Shown: positions 36,179-63,490 of the stretch, piece after piece
How positions within the stretch are numbered: position 1 is the first letter of the stretch
How the letters are laid out: the number at the start of each line of letters is the position of its first letter
NCBI RefSeq assembly: GCF_036711975.1
Contig: NC_091967.1
Location: forward strand, 18,910,001-18,974,000
DNA length: 64,000 nt
Direction: 5' to 3'
Source of the DNA: Onthophagus taurus
Taxonomy: Eukaryota > Arthropoda > Insecta > Coleoptera > Scarabaeidae
The notes under the pieces: model-generated
The model's database searches: none
The model's input: the letters and a program-made list of their open reading frames with translations, nothing else
Told to the model about the DNA's origin: nothing
Translations under genes and position numbers: made by a program

Positions 36179-38577
36179 TTATATAAGTTTTTCAGCTATT
36201 TTCGGATTCTTAGCGTTCGAATACATTTCAATTTCACGACAATTATCGAACAATCTTCCACTGACACCTTCCAATTTATCGGATAACGCAACATAAATCG
36301 ATGTTTGAGCACCTTCTAAAGGAGTCTATAAAAAAATTGATATTTCACAATTAAATTTCTTAAATTAAAACTTACTAAAAAATACAATTTGGACACAAAT
36401 TGAAAAAATGTCTTCAAAAATGGAAATCTTATCAAAAAATCGGTATCAACAGCTCCTGGATGTAAAGTGTTGGTGACGACTTTCGTACCACTCAATCGTT
36501 TTGCTAATTCGATTGTAAATAAAATGTTACACAATTTCGTGCTTTTGTACATATAAAAGGTGGATTTAGCTTCTTTTGGGTGTTTATTTAAGTCGTTCAA
36601 ATCGATTTTACCGGCTAAATGACCGGCTTTCGAAGCCACATTTACAATTCTACTTGACCCCGATTTCTTTAATTTATCCAAAAGTAAATGAGTAAGAAGA
36701 AACGGTCCGACGTGATTCGTTTGTAAAATTACTAGTAACCCATCGTCGGTAAATTTATTTTCAAAACCAATTCCACCAGCGTTATTTACCAAAATATCCA
36801 GTCTATCTTCGGTTTGATTAAAATCGCGAGCAAAATCTCTTATCGATTTAAAGGAAGATAAATCAAGATGTTTGAAGATCACGTTTTCATTTTTCGTTTC
36901 TTTTTTAATGTTGTAAATTGCTGCTTCAGCTCTTTCTTTACTTCTACAAGCTAATATCACCTTACAACCTCTTTTTGCAAAATCTAAAGCTGTCATATAA
37001 CCAATTCCTAGAAATTATTTGTATTGTTAGTAATTAATAGAATTCATATTAAATAATCAAAAATAAAAATATACATAAAGTGGGGCAATCAAACTGCACT
37101 TTCATAGGAAACCTAACCGTACTACAGATACAAATTTCCATGCTTTATGATGTGGTCTTGATGGTTATATTCGTATCATTAGTGATCTCTTCAACTTGCA
37201 AAATGATTTGATTTTTAAATTTGGAGCGTAAACTTGGATGTACAACCACTTAATGATACTCACAGCTAAGTTACCTAAACCCTAGTGCCAGGACAGTATT
37301 TAACAAAGCTTTAAATATTAATTAATTGAAGCTCCTACTACAATAAACTGGTTTAGAAACTACTACAATGATGTCTCTTGCTTGGAGAAGTATTTAAGCT
37401 ATATCTTTAAGGTGGTGATCAATGGCTGCCTGTAAGATGTGTGTTGTCGAGCTTCACATTAAACAACCTAATAAAGCAACTTAGTGTGGTCTATTTTATT
37501 TTTGACAAGATATAGATAGTTCTTCATATAATTACAAAATGATGTGTCAAACAATATCTCTCTTCTAACACAACATGCTATGCTACACTCAACTTGCCTA
37601 CCAAGAAGTTAGCTTGGCATCAATACGTGGAAACTAAACCATATAAGTTTTGTGCCTTAGGATGCGGCTGGAAGGATGTGGAATCTGTTTTTCAAGATCG
37701 CTCTTTGGACTTACACGCCCATAATTGTCAGAATATTCACTTACGGAGAGTAGCCTGGTGGTAGACTTTGCTAACATTTTTGTAAAATCTGTGTAATTAA
37801 ATCTAGTAATTAATTCCAAGATAAACTCAATCTATCTCAAACATAATTAGTAATATAGTACAAAATGTTCATAAATATAATAAACGTTCCAAGTCAAGTC
37901 CGTTACCTTTCCGAACCATTCCAAATAAAAATTCTTGTTTACTTGTGTGATATTGTGTTGTGAAACTCAAGGTCTACTACTCAATAAAGAAAAACTTGTT
38001 AATTTAAAATAATCATTTGGTTGGGTATTCCATTTACCAGTATTTTATAAAAAATGTAAACGATGAAAATTATAATCAATTTATTTTCTGTACTTTTTTA
38101 CTGGTTTATTAGTCTTTAAATTCAGCTTAACATGTTTCGACTACACATGTTACGACTTCAGTTAACTTTACTTTACATTCTTTTTTTGTTAATTTTATGC
38201 TAACAATATTAAGGTTGTCTCGAGATCTTTAAATAAAGTATACCCGCTTGAGTCATCGATTAATGGTATTTAGATACTGTTTCAGTATATAAATAGGTTG
38301 TGATGTAATTGGCAGATCGATTATAACGCATATCTAATTTTTATAATACGTGAAAAAAGGTTTACATTTAATAATCGTTTGACTGTCACAACTTTGTTTA
38401 TAATTTTTGTATGCATAAATTTAAAATAAATGTTCCTACCTGTATTAGAACCGGTAATAATAGCAGTTTTACCAACAAGACATAACATCCATTATGTCTA
38501 ATACGAAGTTTTAAAATTATTTTTAAAATAACAGCCACAATAGTTATAATAAATAAGTAACAAAATAAACAGCTCAT
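36179..38577 (-). CDS. Short-chain dehydrogenase copy 4, frameshifted exon 1 and shortened C-terminus
   Basis: Exon 1 is 38577-38440, a fused exon 2+3 is 37007-36376, and exon 4 is 36325-36179. Motifs are kept: TGSNTG split over the exon 1/2 junction, NNAG (DILVNNAGGIGF), active site YKSTK, LHPGAVDTD. Exon 1 is 138 nt where copy 1 has 142, and comparison with copy 3 shows a 4 nt loss near 38,482, so the anchor (MSCLFCYLFIITIVAVILK) is out of frame with the rest. An internal ATG at 38488 (MLCLVGKTAIITG) would give an in-frame protein of 275 residues without the anchor. The intron between exons 2 and 3 is absent. The last ~14 residues seen in copies 1-3 are replaced by a stop within AT repeats. 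It could be a young pseudogene or a soluble form. Confidence 0.7.
37030..38430. other. Long intron 1 of SDR copy 4: nothing recognised
   Basis: About 1.4 kb of AT-rich intron sequence. No open frame of note. Confidence 0.45.
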
Positions 38578-53400: not shown

Positions 53401-56400
53401 CCTGGCGATTTGGTTGATTTTTGATCTCTCTATATAGTGCTGCGTGTTTCATTTTACAACCCTGGATTTATATTTGCTTCAGTTAACGCCTTTTTTGTTT
53501 TGATCAAGTCAGCGGTGTGTTTGTGATCGGGTTAATTTCGGCTATTTCTTCATTAGTTTTTGACTTAGTTTTCTAAGTTTTTAGTAAAAACACCTTCATT
53601 TATTTTCCTCCCTCATCATCAACCCTTTCATTCCCCTCCTTTAATAACTCTCCCAAAGTTATTAAACAACTATCACCTCTTCAATAATAGATACCAACGA
53701 TTAAGAAATAAAATTTTTAGAACGTAAATATTTTGGTTCCTGAAAACACCTGCGATATTTTATTCAGTCAAGCATTCAAAAACTGTCGTCTTATAAAACC
53801 AGTTGATGAATATTACAGAAGATGTCTAATTGACGCCAATACACAATTATTAAAACCTGAAAATGAAAGAACTAATTATTATTGCCAAACATTATCTGCG
53901 TATGCTCAAGAATGCAATGATATTAAGCAACCTGTAAAGTGGAGAACGAATCGAATTTGTCGTAAGTGCTTTTTCTACTTAAAGCAATTAAATAAGCATT
54001 GTTTATTTAAATACGTTATCGGTTTTAGCGTATGGTTGTAAAACTAATACGGTGTATTATCCATGTGAAACTCCTTGTCCAAAAGACACTTGCCAAAGTA
54101 ATGTTTATTGCCCAAATAAAGTTTGCTCGGAAGCATGTAATGTCGCATCATGTCCACTTAACACGATTTATAAAGATTCTACTTACAAGCAATGTGTAAA
54201 AAGACGCAAATGTGATAGTGTTATCGTACGTCAACCTTTTCTTTTTAATTTAAAATTTTTAATTTATTATTTTTTAATTTTAGAACATTCCTACAGTGGA
54301 GGGACATTGTGTAGGCAATCCACATTGTATGACTTTCGATGGTAAAAAATTTGACTTTATGGGAAAATGTACTTATTATTTAGTAAGAGGTAATGATTTT
54401 GATATAATGTGTGATCATTACATATGGAAGAATGGAGCATACGTTGTAAGTACATTTTTTAAAACTATATTGTTAAACTTTCAACATGATCTGAATTTGC
54501 AGAAAGATTATAAATCAAAAGCACCATCTTATTGTGCAAAAGTAATAATCCATTCTGGAGGTAACATCATCGAATTAGAACAGAAACATAATGTTAAAGT
54601 TAATGGCCATACGATTGGTTTTCGTCCTTATATTAATTCGGAATTCCGCATTAATCAACCGAGTAGTGAATTAACCACCGTTTTATTAAATGATCACGTC
54701 ACTGTAACATGGAATGGCAAATCTCGCGTTACAGTTAGCATTCCTACCACAATGATAGGAAAAGTAAATGTAATATTTATTTTAATTTGTTATTATCAAA
54801 ATAAGCATTATTTTTATCGTAGGGATTACTTGGTACATTTACTAAGTCTCAAGATGATGATTTCTTAATGCCTAACGGTGTCATAACAAAGGATTCAACG
54901 GAATTTGGAAATTCCTGGAAAGTTCCTGGTAGTTGCAAACATGAGTATACTGGACCAGTTGAACATCCTTGCGTAGCTAATCCAAATAGAAAAGCTAAAG
55001 CTGAAGAAAGCTGTGCTGCGCTAAAAAGTGATTTATTCAAAGGTAATAAACCTATAATATATTTTGAGAAATCTATTAAAAATTAATTATTAATAGGGTG
55101 TCTTGATGGTGTAAATAGCGTTTATGATGATTGCCTTTATGACGCTTGCCAATGCACAGATGAAGTAAGTTAATTTTAGAATTACATTCAATTTTAATTT
55201 AACCCAATTCTATGTAATGCAGCAAAAAACTTGTGTTTGTGAATTCTACTCCATTCAAAGTGATAAATGTGCAGCAAAAGGAATTAACGTAGATTGGCGC
55301 AACAAAATCGCACAATGCGCAATTCAATGTCCAGCTGGGCAAACTTACCAAGTTTGTGCAAATCCTTGTACTCGAACATGTGAAGATGTCTCCACCAGCC
55401 TAACATGTAAACGGATCTGTGTTGATGGATGTAGTTGTCCTGAAGGGCATACGTTAAATAGTATTAACCAGTGTGTTCCAATTCATACATGTCCGTGTAT
55501 ATGGGAAAATAAACGATATCCACCAGATTTTACGTTTATACATGATGATAAAGTAAAGTAAGTATTATTGATTTCAATAAATAATAATTTAATAAGAAAA
55601 CGTTGTTACTTAGGGTATGCGAAAATGCGATGTGGAATGTGACCACAGCTACCCCAGACGATAAAAGCATATATAAAACTACCGACGAACTCTACAACAA
55701 ATGTAGCCCTTATGATAACCTTAGATACACTGGTTGCAAACGTGTCAACCCCGTAACATGTCGAAACAAGCATCTTAACGAGAAACCAAATTATGAAAAT
55801 TGTCACAGTGGTTGTCAATGTGTAGAGATGTTGGTATACGATGCAGAAGAAAAGAATTGTATTTATCCGGAATTTTGTCCTTGTTTGTATAAAGGAATCA
55901 GTTTTCCAGATAAAACGGAACGACATGAGAGAAATCAAAAATGGTAAATAATTTATTAAAAATATTATTTTTTTTTGTTCGAACGTTCCTTTTATTTTTA
56001 AATCGTTACTTTAAGTACTTGTCGAGGTGAATATTGGACTTGCTCCCCAGATGCCGACCACTGGGAGAAATGTTCCGTTTGGAATAACATACACGTCAGA
56101 ACTTTTGACGAACTAATTTATTCCTTTAAAGGAATTTGTGAGTACACGTTATTAGAGCACTCATCTTTAACTTATGGAGTATTAAGGGTCACACTTACGG
56201 TATGTTGCTTTTTATACAACAACTTAATAAATTAATATTTATACTTTTTAGACTGCGCAGTGTAATGTTGGATCGTGTATTAAAAGTGTCAAAGTTTATA
56301 TTCGTGATTCAAAAGACAACGAAGATAATGTCATCTTGGTAACTGGCGAAAAATTTATACCGCCAAATAAATTAAAGAATTTAGTTATAACAAATATGGA

Positions 56401-57836: not shown

Positions 57837-58915
57837 CAGTGATGGGCACTGGGTAAATACCTCACGGGTAGGTATTTATAAAATGGGTATTTATTCGGGT
57901 ATTTACCTCGGCCCAGGGTAAATACCCAAACAATACGTATAAAAGTGATACAAGTAAAAATATATCACATACCGAAAAAATGAAGAGGAAATGATGAAAT
58001 GGACGTTGGAGACTAGGAATTGTCAACGATCCAAGACGTATTATCATCAGACGAATCTGTCGTAATTTAGATTAGATCAAGTTATTATTATTATTATCAT
58101 CAAGCTATCCTTGGATATAGGCCTCCCCTATTCTGTTCCATTCGATTCTATTCTGTGCTGTCTGAACCCAATTGTTGAGCTTTGCCACAATGTTGACCAC
58201 ACCTTCGGCGCCAGTTCTTCTTCATAGGTCTTCATTTCGGTCTTTGCGTTACTTTGAGCCTCCTGCCAGTCGCTACCGTTATTGTTTCGGAGCCGTATGT
58301 CATAAGCGGAAATACGCATTGATTGAAAGCCTTTCTTTTCAAATATATAGGAATATCGTGTTGAAGATGTCTCTAAGTTTCCCGCAAACTGTCTATGTGA
58401 GTATGATCCTTCTGTTTAGTTCGCTTGTTTGATTATCTCTGGATACACGAACCTCATGGCCAAGATAGACATAGCTGTCAACCCTCTCAATCTCATTATC
58501 CCCAATGTTGATGTTAGACTTGGGAACAAGATTTGTTATAAATTTTGATTTGATGTTTATGCCTGTTTGGATTCAATCCAGTTCTTTAAATGCATTCTCC
58601 AGGACTGTGATGAACAATTTGGGTTCAACAGTGTATCGCTTTGTTTTACTCACAATCAGTAGTTTACTACTTCTACTCTCTTCAGTACTTTTATAAAATT
58701 TTACCGTCATTGTAGCATTCTTGTAGATGTTATAAACAAGTTTGGTGTATCGATAATCGACTCTGCATTCTTGAAGTGCTAGCAAAACTGCCATCAACTA
58801 AATTTAAATTAAATTTTATAAATACCTCTAAATACCCATCTTGGGTAAACACCCCCGGGTATATATCCAGGAAATTTACCCTTGAAAATAAATACCCGGG
58901 TATTTAACAACATTG
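57837..58915. mobile_element. hAT-type non-autonomous element with 8 bp target duplication
   Basis: Flanked on both sides by GATATACG (57829-57836 and 58916-58923). The ends are short imperfect inverted repeats: left CAGTGATGGGCACTGGGTAA, right (reverse complement) CAATGTTGTTAAATACCCGG. Subterminal DNA is full of GGGTATTTA/TAAATACCC motifs in both orientations. An 8 bp duplication with CA(G/A)TG ends is the hAT signature. No hAT transposase is inside; its interior is a non-LTR fragment instead. Confidence 0.8.
58128..58797 (-). pseudogene. Non-LTR retrotransposon fragment inside the hAT element
   Basis: On the minus strand, 58,797-58,573 reads LALQECRVDYRYTKLVYNIY and PKLFITVLENAFKELD, a reverse-transcriptase segment. 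Then 58,319-58,128 resembles the C-terminal tail (SDWQEAQSNAKTEMKTYEEE). The middle of the polymerase is missing. Confidence 0.6.
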
Positions 58916-59107
58916 GATATACGTAAGTAAGAATGTTGTTGTCCAGCAAACGTGAAGCAACACAATAAAAAAAAGAAAAGAATTGTTGGCGTACCAAAAA
59001 AAAAGTTGAAATAAATGACGAAAATAAATGAATAAAACAATTACGCAAAAAGAAAATAATAAATTTGAATTGAATTACGCGCACGACCCGTACCCCTGAT
59101 ATCAGTG

Positions 59108-59112
59108 TGGCG
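59108..59112. repeat. Left 5 bp target duplication of the Transib-like element
   Basis: TGGCG directly precedes the CACTATG terminus and is repeated at 61919-61923. A 5 bp, GC-rich duplication is the Transib habit. Confidence 0.85.
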
Positions 59113-61918
59113 CACTATGGGCAATTTGAGCCGTTTGCTGATCATAAATGGGTTTTTCGAAAGTCGTAAAACCTATATAACGTCATATCTTCCCGAAAAG
59201 GTTGTTCAATGGAGAACCTAATTCAGCTATCAATAAGTAATTTCATCGTTGCATTTTAATAATAAACGTAGGATTATCCGATGACATCAATTTCGAGATT
59301 TCTTTAACTATCGCTAAAGTTTTAGCAGTTAGCGATGTTTAGCGATGGTCTACAATATATATAGTTTTAAAGACTATTTATTTCTTTAAAACATATAAAA
59401 AAAATTAGCTGCCAACATTTGCCTATTTAGAAGTTATTACCAGAAAACTAAAAGAGTCCACGTCACGCACAGAAGTGTTGTTTATAAGTGTCTTGTTTAT
59501 TGACGACGTACATAACTTAAATGCAATATGGCTTTTCTTAGGTTAGGTAGCTTAAACTTGGCATACAGAATAATAATATCACGAGACTATAATCAATTTT
59601 CAGAATATCGGAAGAATCAATACTATACAGTGTGTCCACAAAAGTTATATCCGTAGTACATTTTTATTTAAATATAAAGCCCAATCATTTTTAATTATTA
59701 AAAAATAGTCTAATTTTAAAATTATTGTTATAAATATTTATTTATTTGCATGCTTTTCAAGTTATTCAACACAATATGTAATCAGTTTTCGGTTATATAT
59801 TGTTGCCCATTAATTTAGTTGGCGTGAATAAATCTTCAACGGCCAATGGCGCACTTAATTTTTTTGGTAATATTGACTGAGCCAATCATTTGGCTCATGA
59901 TTGGTTAAACCAGGAGTATACTGTATCTTTATCTGTTCTAAATGAAGAATGCGACGAATCTGTTGGTTCCATGCCATCTACATCTAATGAAAAGAGAGAA
60001 AGACCGTATCTACCTTACGAAGATTCTGCAGCATCTAGTAAGAGACGAAAAAATACCACATTGCTAAATGAATATGGATTTGATCGTATATACAGTGCGT
60101 ATATTCAGGAATTACGGTCAATGGTAGAAAGTGATGAAGCAAATGTAGTGGAGACTATAAGAGATTTGCAGCCTGATGAAAAGAAAGCAATTTTAAAACA
60201 GATCCACCATGATAAATCACAACCATTGACTGTAGTTGAAGCATTAAGCGTTTACATTGATTTAGATTTCACTAAAGCACAATATTTATACCTTAGAAAT
60301 CTAACCAATGAGAAAAGCTCCTTTTTATTGCCACCTTCTTATCACAACATCTAGGAAAGTAAAAAAAGCTGTTATCAACCTGTTTCTAGCATAGAAATCA
60401 GCAATACATATGCAAAGGTAACATCTTTACAAGATTTATTAAATCACACAAGTACGGTAGTGTGGCAAAATCTTGTCCCCTCTTCTGTGCGGATTTGTCG
60501 ACCAATTTCAATCGAGTTTCTAAAGAGACTCCCGAGAAAACAAAAGCCGTTGTGCTCGACATGCACTATTTGCGGTGCTAATCCACAGCAAATGAATAAT
60601 TTAGAAAAGGTGGCAACAAGACCAGAAAATGATAATGCATTTCGCTATCGTTTGTCAATGATACATGCCTCGATACGTTGCATGGAGATGATTTTACACA
60701 TATCATATTATCTACCCTTCCGAAAGTGGTCAGCTACTACCGCAGAAAATAAACAATTAAAAAGAGATAAGAAAGCTTTGGTCCAGGCACGATTCCGCAA
60801 ATAGCTTGGTTTGATTATTGATGAGCCAAAGAAATAAGTGGTAATACAAACGATGGAAATACTGCTAAAAGATTTTTTTTGTAATGCTTCTTCTTCGGCA
60901 GAAATTACCAGTGTCGACGAAATATTGATTAAGCGATTTCACATAATTTTTCAGGTGTTGACATCGGGTATTACGGAAACGGCAAAAATATACATTAAAA
61001 ATTATGACTGGTATTACATGCCATCTTCCGTACATAAAGTATTAATTCGTGGTGAACGTATCATACGACATTTTGCAATTTTACCTATTGGACAGCTATC
61101 AGAAGATGTACAGGAATCTCGAAATAATGATTACAAAAAATTTAGACTACATCATGCACGAAAATGTTCTAGATATGCTACAAACGAAGATGTATTTTAT
61201 ATACTCCTTTATACATCAGATCCATACATAACGAATATTACAAATCAGTGCATTAAAAATGTAAAGAAACTTGACGAAGAAACCCTAGCTCTTTTAACAC
61301 AGCATCACCTGGTTTCTGAAAATTAAATTGAATAAGTTGAACAGTGTCAAATGAGTACAGTTTCAGGTAAAGTACTACTTCCGGTTATGTGAGATGGTAG
61401 AAATTTTGTATCTGAAAGTTACTTATTCTTATTCAGATTTCTACAAAATTTTTTAACTATTTGTAAATCTGTTAAAGTAAACTGCTACTTCCGGTCGACA
61501 GATTTGTTCCAAAAGTTGGTAGAGATCAACAGTCTTAATTTAATAGCCGCATACCAAATTTCATGGAAGTAGATAATTGCGTCTTTGAGTTATCGTGTTT
61601 ACGAACGCACGTATATAATACATACTATATACTAACAGATACATATGTACAGATGTAATGCTAAAATGGTCAAAATAGGTTCTAGGACCATCAAATGTAT
61701 AGATTCATCACAACCTCGAAACGGTAGTTTGGGACAGAAGTTGTCTTCATATAGTTCGTATATAGGAGGAAATAAAAATAATAATAAATAATAAAAAGAA
61801 AATTGGTACTCTTACTTCCTGTAATGTAGAATATTCTTACCAAGTTTGAAAGGTTTATGTTTAAAAATAAAAAAGTTATTGATTTTTGATCAGCAAACGG
61901 ACTAAATTTTCCATAGTG
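59113..61918 (+). mobile_element. Transib-superfamily (RAG1-like) DNA transposon, 2,806 bp, both ends present
   Basis: Terminal inverted repeats of about 37 bp: left CACTATGGGCAATTTGAGCC continuing to TTTGCTGATCATAAAT (59113-59149); right, in reverse complement, CACTATGGAAAATTTAGTCC continuing to TTTGCTGATCAAAAAT. About six mismatches separate them. Flanking TGGCG is duplicated exactly (59108-59112, 61919-61923). CACTATG fits the CACWRTG start described for Transib elements, the counterpart of the V(D)J heptamer CACAGTG. The interior codes a damaged transposase (59890-61326). Since the ends look intact, the copy could still have been mobilised by an enzyme supplied elsewhere. Confidence 0.88.
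59890..61326 (+). pseudogene. Broken Transib/RAG1-like transposase
   Basis: Segment 1 (59890-60354) contains DRIYSAYIQELRSM and ends at an in-frame TAG; the same frame continues to 60804 with VVWQNLVPSSVRICRPISIE, CTICGANPQQMNNL and RYRLSMIHASIRCMEMILHI. Segment 3 (60838-61326) contains YYMPSSVHKVLIRGERIIRH, ILPIGQLSEDVQESRNND and LHHARKCSRYATNEDVFYIL. NTNDGNTAKRFF, holding the second catalytic aspartate, is legible at 60,845-60,885 only in another frame, so at least two indels occur there. The last block aligns by eye with RAG1 around its catalytic glutamate ([20 protein letters not shown]). The block expected between HTSTV and VWQNL, which carries the first catalytic aspartate in relatives, is missing. 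The enzyme is therefore dead. Confidence 0.82.
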
Positions 61919-61923
61919 TGGCG

Positions 61924-63490
61924 TCGAGAAAGAAAATAAAAACTAATTCGTGAAATAAAAAAATGTAAACCAAAATTTTACAAAGAAAAATAACAAAAAT
62001 TATTTTGTTTGATTTAACTGACAACAAAATACTGAATATTTTCTATTTATGATAATTTTATGATATATATAAAATATATTTAATTAATTTATTTGATTTA
62101 AGATTTAATGAATTTAATTTAAATTGTACTTAATTGAACAAAAGTTCACCGGGAAGCGGTATATAAAACAAACGTTTAGGTCTGACCTTGTCTTGACCAC
62201 GTGTAGACGATCCAAGCAAATTCTTCCAGCTCCAGCGACAATCTCCTCCGATTCAGGGAAAGGAAAACTTATTGGGTAGTAGTAATGCAACTTCGACCAA
62301 AATCCTCAAGGAAGAACCCCCCGAAAAGGTAGAACTTCGAAAATGGATTGAAAAATCTCACAAAATAACCAAACTTCTGTTTCGAAAATGTTACAGAAAG
62401 GTTGCCAAAATGTATGCTCTTCAATTAAAACCTTAAATAAACACGAAGAAATTAGAAAAGAAAAAAAAATATACCTATATAAAAAGAAAAGAGTAGAAAG
62501 GATGGAAAAATAAGATATAAAAAAAAAATGATGATAATAGTTTAATTAATTTGGTGGTAAAAGGATGTATGTTTGAATAAATGAAGGTATGAATGTGTAA
62601 GGGAAAATATAAAATATATTTAATAAAAATATCTTACCTCAGATCTTCGAAGTTTAGTCAGAAAAACGTAGAAAAGTTTCAAAATACGGTTTAATCCGAA
62701 ATAATCCGATAATTGGACGTTCAAAAACGTTACCAATAAATTGCACAACACGTAGATGAATCCCAAAAATTTGGATTAGGAACCAATCACCACGCGAAAA
62801 ATTCAAAATGGCTTTACCAAAAATCCTAATTCTACGTGCGTACACGTACTGATCTGACATGAAAAGAGGAAGTGAAAATCTTATACAGACGATAAATATC
62901 CTCAAAAATTCACAAAAAATAGATACTTGCGCACAAGCAAGAATAACGAAAGAATTAACACCATCTTTTAGGGGAAACGAAGAAGTAAAATAAGTTTAGA
63001 GGAAAATAAATTGAAAAGGAAAAAGGAAAATCATGAAAGGAGATCTTCGGAGAATTGTCGCTGAAAAAGAAAAATTAATTAAACAAAAATTCAACAAAAT
63101 AAACAAAAAGTAAACAAAATAAATCATCGCGAAATTTATGCAACTCAAAATACTCGATAACAAAATAAAATATCTAACCCAAAATAAAATTAAAACAAAG
63201 AATTGGGAAAGTAAAGGTTAAACACACAAATAAAACATTAAGGAAAAATACAACCGTAACAACATGTATGATTAGAAGTGGCTAGCTGTTGGAGTAGTTT
63301 TAATTGTTATAACATTGTATGTGAAAGCTGTTTGTTGCCTTCCTTTCACATAATAATAATAATAATAATAATTTATTTAATCACCTGGCTACAAATAGTA
63401 GATGTGACAAGTTCAAACCACATACAATATATAATACACAACATACACAATATTCAACAAAGAAAGAGAGAAATTAAATTATGAAGTATG
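61924..63490. other. Non-coding, probably repeat-derived DNA
   Basis: AT-rich with a GC-richer, retroelement-like patch near 62,150-62,350 that has no identifiable domain. A simple ATA/TAA repeat lies at about 63,351-63,375. No host gene was seen. Confidence 0.45.

Follow-up and report, generated by a model that had tools for sequence, protein, structure and literature searches.

The window (the whole stretch of 64,000 nucleotides of Onthophagus taurus DNA that we analysed) contains a mobile element of 2806 bp which, judging by its sequence, is a member of the Transib superfamily. With high probability, the best explanation of this element is a helper-dependent Transib derivative that was moved in trans. 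Because both catalytic aspartate regions have been lost and two stop codons have been gained, its own gene would be unable to supply a transposase; the window copy is thus, very probably, a non-autonomous deletion derivative, a passenger rather than a driver of transposition. The features of the element and of the repeat that received it are collected in Table 1.

Table 1. Features of the Transib element and of its insertion site, in positions of the window
Feature	Position	Strand	Evidence
LTR-like recipient repeat, left half	59022..59112	+	search with joined flanks
Left target-site duplication TGGCG	59108..59112	.	once at the junction in 12/12 fetched empty repeat copies
Left terminal inverted repeat, starts CACTATGG	59113..59149	+	37 nt, 84% complementary; 49 genome ends vs 0 in control
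183-bp deletion scar, microhomology GTAA (4 bp), end points only in window copy	59166..59169	+	
Transposase segment 1 (N-terminal part); last codon a subfamily-shared TAG	59890..60354	+	open frames, copy comparison
Premature TAG; CAG in L063, L064 and other relatives	60352..60354	+	copy comparison
Transposase segment 2; best stretch against HzTransib chain residues 222-302	60355..60804	+	E 8.2e-19
~200-bp deletion scar, first catalytic Asp region lost	60449..60452	+	junction in 8/28 copies
138-bp deletion scar, microhomology TG (2 bp), end points only in window copy	60553..60554	+	
Premature TAG, common to L063; GAG in L064	60802..60804	+	copy comparison
Transposase segment 3, C-terminal part	60838..61326	+	HzTransib 6pqn E 1.3e-31; RAG1L 6b40 E 0.011
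33-bp in-frame loss site, common to L063	60973..60974	+	copy comparison, structure alignment
Catalytic Glu codon (ESRN), sole DDE residue remaining	61114..61116	+	structure matches, L064 match, motif search
301-bp deletion scar, microhomology CA (2 bp), 3' of gene, end points only in window copy	61348..61349	+	
Right terminal inverted repeat	61882..61918	-	inverted-repeat search and genome pattern search
Right target-site duplication TGGCG	61919..61923	.	window reading, flank table, empty copies
LTR-like recipient repeat, right half	61924..62000	+	search with joined flanks

An inverted-repeat search recovered the ends just as the first-pass annotation had described them (about 37 bp with about six mismatches), and its coordinates are correct to the base: the two 37-nt ends, 59113-59149 and 61882-61918, match at 31 of 37 positions (84%), with six mismatches. 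Each end reads CAC...GTG and is abutted by TGGCG. As a control we used 300 first-order Markov shuffles of positions 58500-62500 of the window and scored the best CAC..GTG pair; this pair reached 24 of 37 positions, or 21 when matching 5-bp flanks were demanded, as compared with 31 with matching flanks for the real pair. Both ends begin with CACTATG, which agrees at five of seven bases with CACAGTG, the RSS heptamer of V(D)J. The ends pair ungapped over the 37 nt, which means that the inner conserved block is equidistant in both, and the 12/23 spacer asymmetry of V(D)J signals was not found in the equally spaced ends of the window element.

The same ends recur in the genome, where the first-pass annotation had proposed to look for them: a pattern derived from them, with up to three mismatches allowed, was found at 49 places in 290.8 Mb and its reversed control at none. 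We tabulated the flanks of 16 copies and left out one whose examined stretch does not cover the left end, so that 15 copies remained, the window copy included. Identical 5-bp flanks are seen in 14 of these (L024 is counted after a one-base shift of its left coordinate), and the only mismatched pair is AGGCG/CGGCG in L074. The Transib target site is given as CGNCG in the excerpted text of one report (PMC4735498). This motif is exact on both sides in 8 of the 15 copies and one base off in 6, among them the window copy, whose TGGCG differs at the first base; in L074 one flank is exact and the other is one base off. A GC-rich duplication of 5 bp with a preference for CGNCG and heptamer-like inverted ends that start with CAC are both traits of Transib elements, and both were found here.

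The insertion itself can be followed in the flanking repeat. The joined flanks, with the element removed, were used as a genome query, and 40 matches were listed (the best 40 of 47 candidates were scored). Among these, 38 cross the junction with 85-93% identity and the remaining two are the window's own halves. Since 20 of the 38 listed junction-crossing matches make up ten same-strand pairs that lie 7.6-8.0 kb apart, we infer that the recipient repeat is an LTR; within the window, a search for a second copy of it gave only short matches of 29-53 nt. All 12 of the empty copies that were fetched have a single TGGCG at the junction, which reads CAGTGTGGCGTCGAG in eleven of them and CAGCGTGGCGTCGAG in L105. 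The empty copies show that the element was inserted into a TGGCG site and that this site was duplicated, in agreement with the target-site duplication that had been annotated. Elsewhere in the window, three open frames (1455-2255, 36316-36996 and 54296-54868), read by eye, look like host genes and resemble, in this order, a PHD-finger protein, a short-chain dehydrogenase and a piece of a von Willebrand type D domain.

Inside the element lie three open segments and a glutamate block like that of RAG1, as first annotated, and the transposase that these segments represent is homologous to that of Transib. In comparisons with protein structures, HzTransib was matched by segment 2 (E = 8.2e-19) and segment 3 (E = 1.3e-31). 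The relative L064, which has an uninterrupted frame of 539 codons, matches HzTransib with E = 1.1e-121 over residues 9-466 of the 497-residue chain; its matches to amphioxus RAG1L (6b40, E = 1.4e-9) and to vertebrate RAG1 chains (from 1.4e-7) are much weaker, and it clears the Pfam RAG1 cut-off with 28.5 bits. The superfamily named in the first-pass annotation is thus upheld. Apart from the transposase pieces, the element, which is internally deleted in this copy, holds only four frames of 50-60 amino acids. No match was found among phage records, which was to be expected.

An autonomous Transib has an open frame with a D, D, E triad. The window copy has stops at 60352 and 60802 and lacks both Asp regions, so the description of the element as "whole" had to be given up. 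The deletions were defined by comparison with L063 and L064 for the two Asp regions and with L059 for the 183- and 301-bp losses. In L063 and L064 the first Asp region reads KWGCDGSSG; the 138-bp deletion takes out the second one (MIDGK). The 33-bp stretch that is missing near 60974 is kept in L064, L065, L066, L068, L074, L018, L020 and L026, and is present as residues in HzTransib. The end points of the 183-, 138- and 301-bp deletions are absent from the 20 other loci compared, several of which (e.g. L066, L068 and L078) have other losses that span the same places. Introns were considered as the cause of these three gaps and rejected: the junctions are unfit for GT-AG splicing, and what the 138-bp gap removes is coding sequence with a catalytic Asp.

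The order of these losses can be read from the other copies. A motif search covered 28 distinct copies, limited to the sequence stretch examined for each one. The two Asp motifs occur together with the Glu block in five of them, L063, L064, L018, L019 and L020, the last three of which were counted separately and may include duplicates of one another. Only L064 is stop-free among these five, and it has the only uninterrupted catalytic-core frame within the window family, in both cases among the matches listed; the beginning of segment 1 is missing from L064, and the inverted-repeat search saw no right end for it. At the start of the series stands L064, with neither stop and with the 33-bp stretch retained. 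L063 stands in the middle: it has lost the 33-bp stretch and gained the stop at 60802, while its codon at 60352 is still CAG and its first Asp motif is still present. The junction of the first-Asp deletion is found in eight of the 28 copies (the window copy, L059, L060, L061, L062, L067, L072 and the L023/L052 copy), in all eight together with both stops; the second Asp motif is missing in the window copy alone among these eight.

For the seven of the eight copies whose left ends were read, the left flanks (600 bp each) are unrelated. Segmental duplication as the source of the shared deletion is ruled out for these seven. Since the first-Asp deletion and the stop at 60352 are identical at seven unrelated sites, they predate the insertion. 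A gene that had lost its first catalytic Asp thus came to reside at at least seven separate sites, and therefore a transposase from elsewhere was required. The first-pass annotation had spoken of an active RAG-like transposon; the subfamily had lost its first aspartate before it spread, and the present copy is better described as a passenger. When 21 left flanks were compared, only those of L070, L071, L075 and L076 were related to one another; they are 96-100% alike, so these copies are duplicates and count as one insertion. Stretches of L070 (1767-1904) and L071 (2963-3100) resemble the N-terminal part of L100 (39% over 46 residues, E = 2.9e-4). This stretch was not found in the window copy; in the family to which this copy belongs, the N-terminal part may formerly have been longer.

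The window copy differs from six siblings by 0.71-1.60%, and from L059 by 0.87%. The closest pair, L059 and L072, differs at 3 of 1693 sites in this comparison, which left aside the L023/L052 copy. Such low divergence supports a fairly recent movement of the subfamily, as had been suggested from the clear ends alone.

Taken together, a Transib transposase would have cut the ends and joined the element into TGGCG within an LTR-like repeat of older date, and this site would have been duplicated when the 5-nt stagger was repaired; these enzymatic steps are modelled on HzTransib and RAG. By the time the lineage spread to unrelated sites, it had already lost the first Asp region and carried both stops, with the transposase presumably supplied in trans by another copy or by a sibling Transib family. 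The 183-, 138- and 301-bp deletions, with their microhomologies of 2-4 bp, could have arisen by interrupted gap repair or by ordinary end joining.

One might suppose instead that an autonomous Transib was inserted whole and then decayed in place. The end points of the three deletions just named, which none of the 20 other compared loci has, would suit such a history, since these losses could postdate the insertion. For the first-Asp deletion, however, decay in place is refuted, as seven unrelated sites share its junction and the stop at 60352, and we consider this history improbable. Even less credible is a domestication of segment 3 by the host. The last frame, of 162 codons, is indeed open in the window copy and in four further ones that are 95-98% identical (among the matches listed), but the frame is broken upstream, siblings located elsewhere carry this same broken frame and nothing sets the window copy apart.

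The remaining alternative is a different superfamily that also makes 5-bp duplications and resembles RAG1 by chance. Segment 1, when searched alone against structures, gave no HzTransib or other Transib match and none that was convincing. Segment 3 scores 11.4 bits against the Pfam RAG1 cut-off of 25, and segments 1 and 2 are not listed for this family. Against this stand the HzTransib matches of segments 2 and 3, the ends and the target site, all of which agree with Transib, and the L064 match refutes the reading outright; we give it practically no weight. Movement of a helper-dependent Transib derivative remains the explanation that we prefer.

We were not able to identify a helper for the window subfamily. 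A genome search with the L064 protein gave 1018 first-look candidates, so that Transib-like places appear to be very numerous in this genome; the best 80 candidates were scored and 87 matches listed. At least 18 other listed matches, with 42-49% protein identity, align over 450 or more of the 539 query residues without an internal stop. Among the loci that were read, L099, L100 and L038 have open frames of 726, 730 and 647 codons, in which the three catalytic motifs were recognised by eye. Another genome search for the transposase gave at least 151 matches (the best 150 of 539 candidates were scored). No convincing pair of matching ends was found in the open siblings L099, L100, L101, L038, L031, L033, L028, L027 and L037, although the sequence examined of each may not extend as far as the ends.

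Two sibling elements deserve mention. L036 (948-2592) is a sibling Transib whose ends (CACAGTGGGGCGAAACGCT..) are identical at 34 of 35 positions and start with CACAGTG, the V(D)J heptamer; its flanks are TAGCA/TAGCG. In L101 (957-3230), an open frame of 758 codons resembles Transib except that the part with the catalytic Glu is swapped in frame for unrelated sequence. The replacement matched no family in Pfam up to an E of 0.1, and L101 may be a fusion that arose when another mobile or virus-like gene was inserted.

A tentative proposal, which we would sooner doubt than rely on, is that functional Transib transposases persist in this genome and act across families on broken relatives. If true, the window subfamily would offer a natural series of RAG-like substrates that depend on a helper and that moved recently amid many open Transib frames, and with a living helper this genome would suit the study of how a RAG-like element transposes in an animal whose immunity is not based on RAG. 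Taken alone, the window element confirms what is known of Transib elements, and dependence on a helper is ordinary for such elements. Its value lies in being a clean case: the ends are exact, both filled and empty sites are seen, and the succession of losses shows that a RAG-like transposon went on moving after its gene had lost a catalytic residue.

The ends, the duplication, the target site and the enzyme are those of Transib, as far as the excerpted sources describe it (PMC7204232, PMC8355894, PMC1852546, PMC4735498). HzTransib of Helicoverpa zea is described, in the part of the source available, as an element of 3518 bp with GCTCG duplications and a deduced protein of 489 amino acids (PMC1852546). 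Our family shares with it a homologous transposase core (L064), the inverted ends and the 5-bp duplication; on the other hand, the window copy has 2806 bp, lacks both Asp regions and contains two stops. A second comparison is with Transib N1-N3, where N stands for non-autonomous. These are named in Anopheles gambiae in the available text of PMC8355894. By description, N1-N3 also have Transib ends, no working transposase gene and a need for help in trans, whereas the window copy retains most of a recognisable transposase gene and its family displays a stepwise series of losses in one genome. Finally, RAG1 and amphioxus RAG1L (ProtoRAG) have in common with our family the catalytic glutamate block, ends that start with CAC and the 5-bp duplication, and differ from it in the 12/23 asymmetry of their signals.
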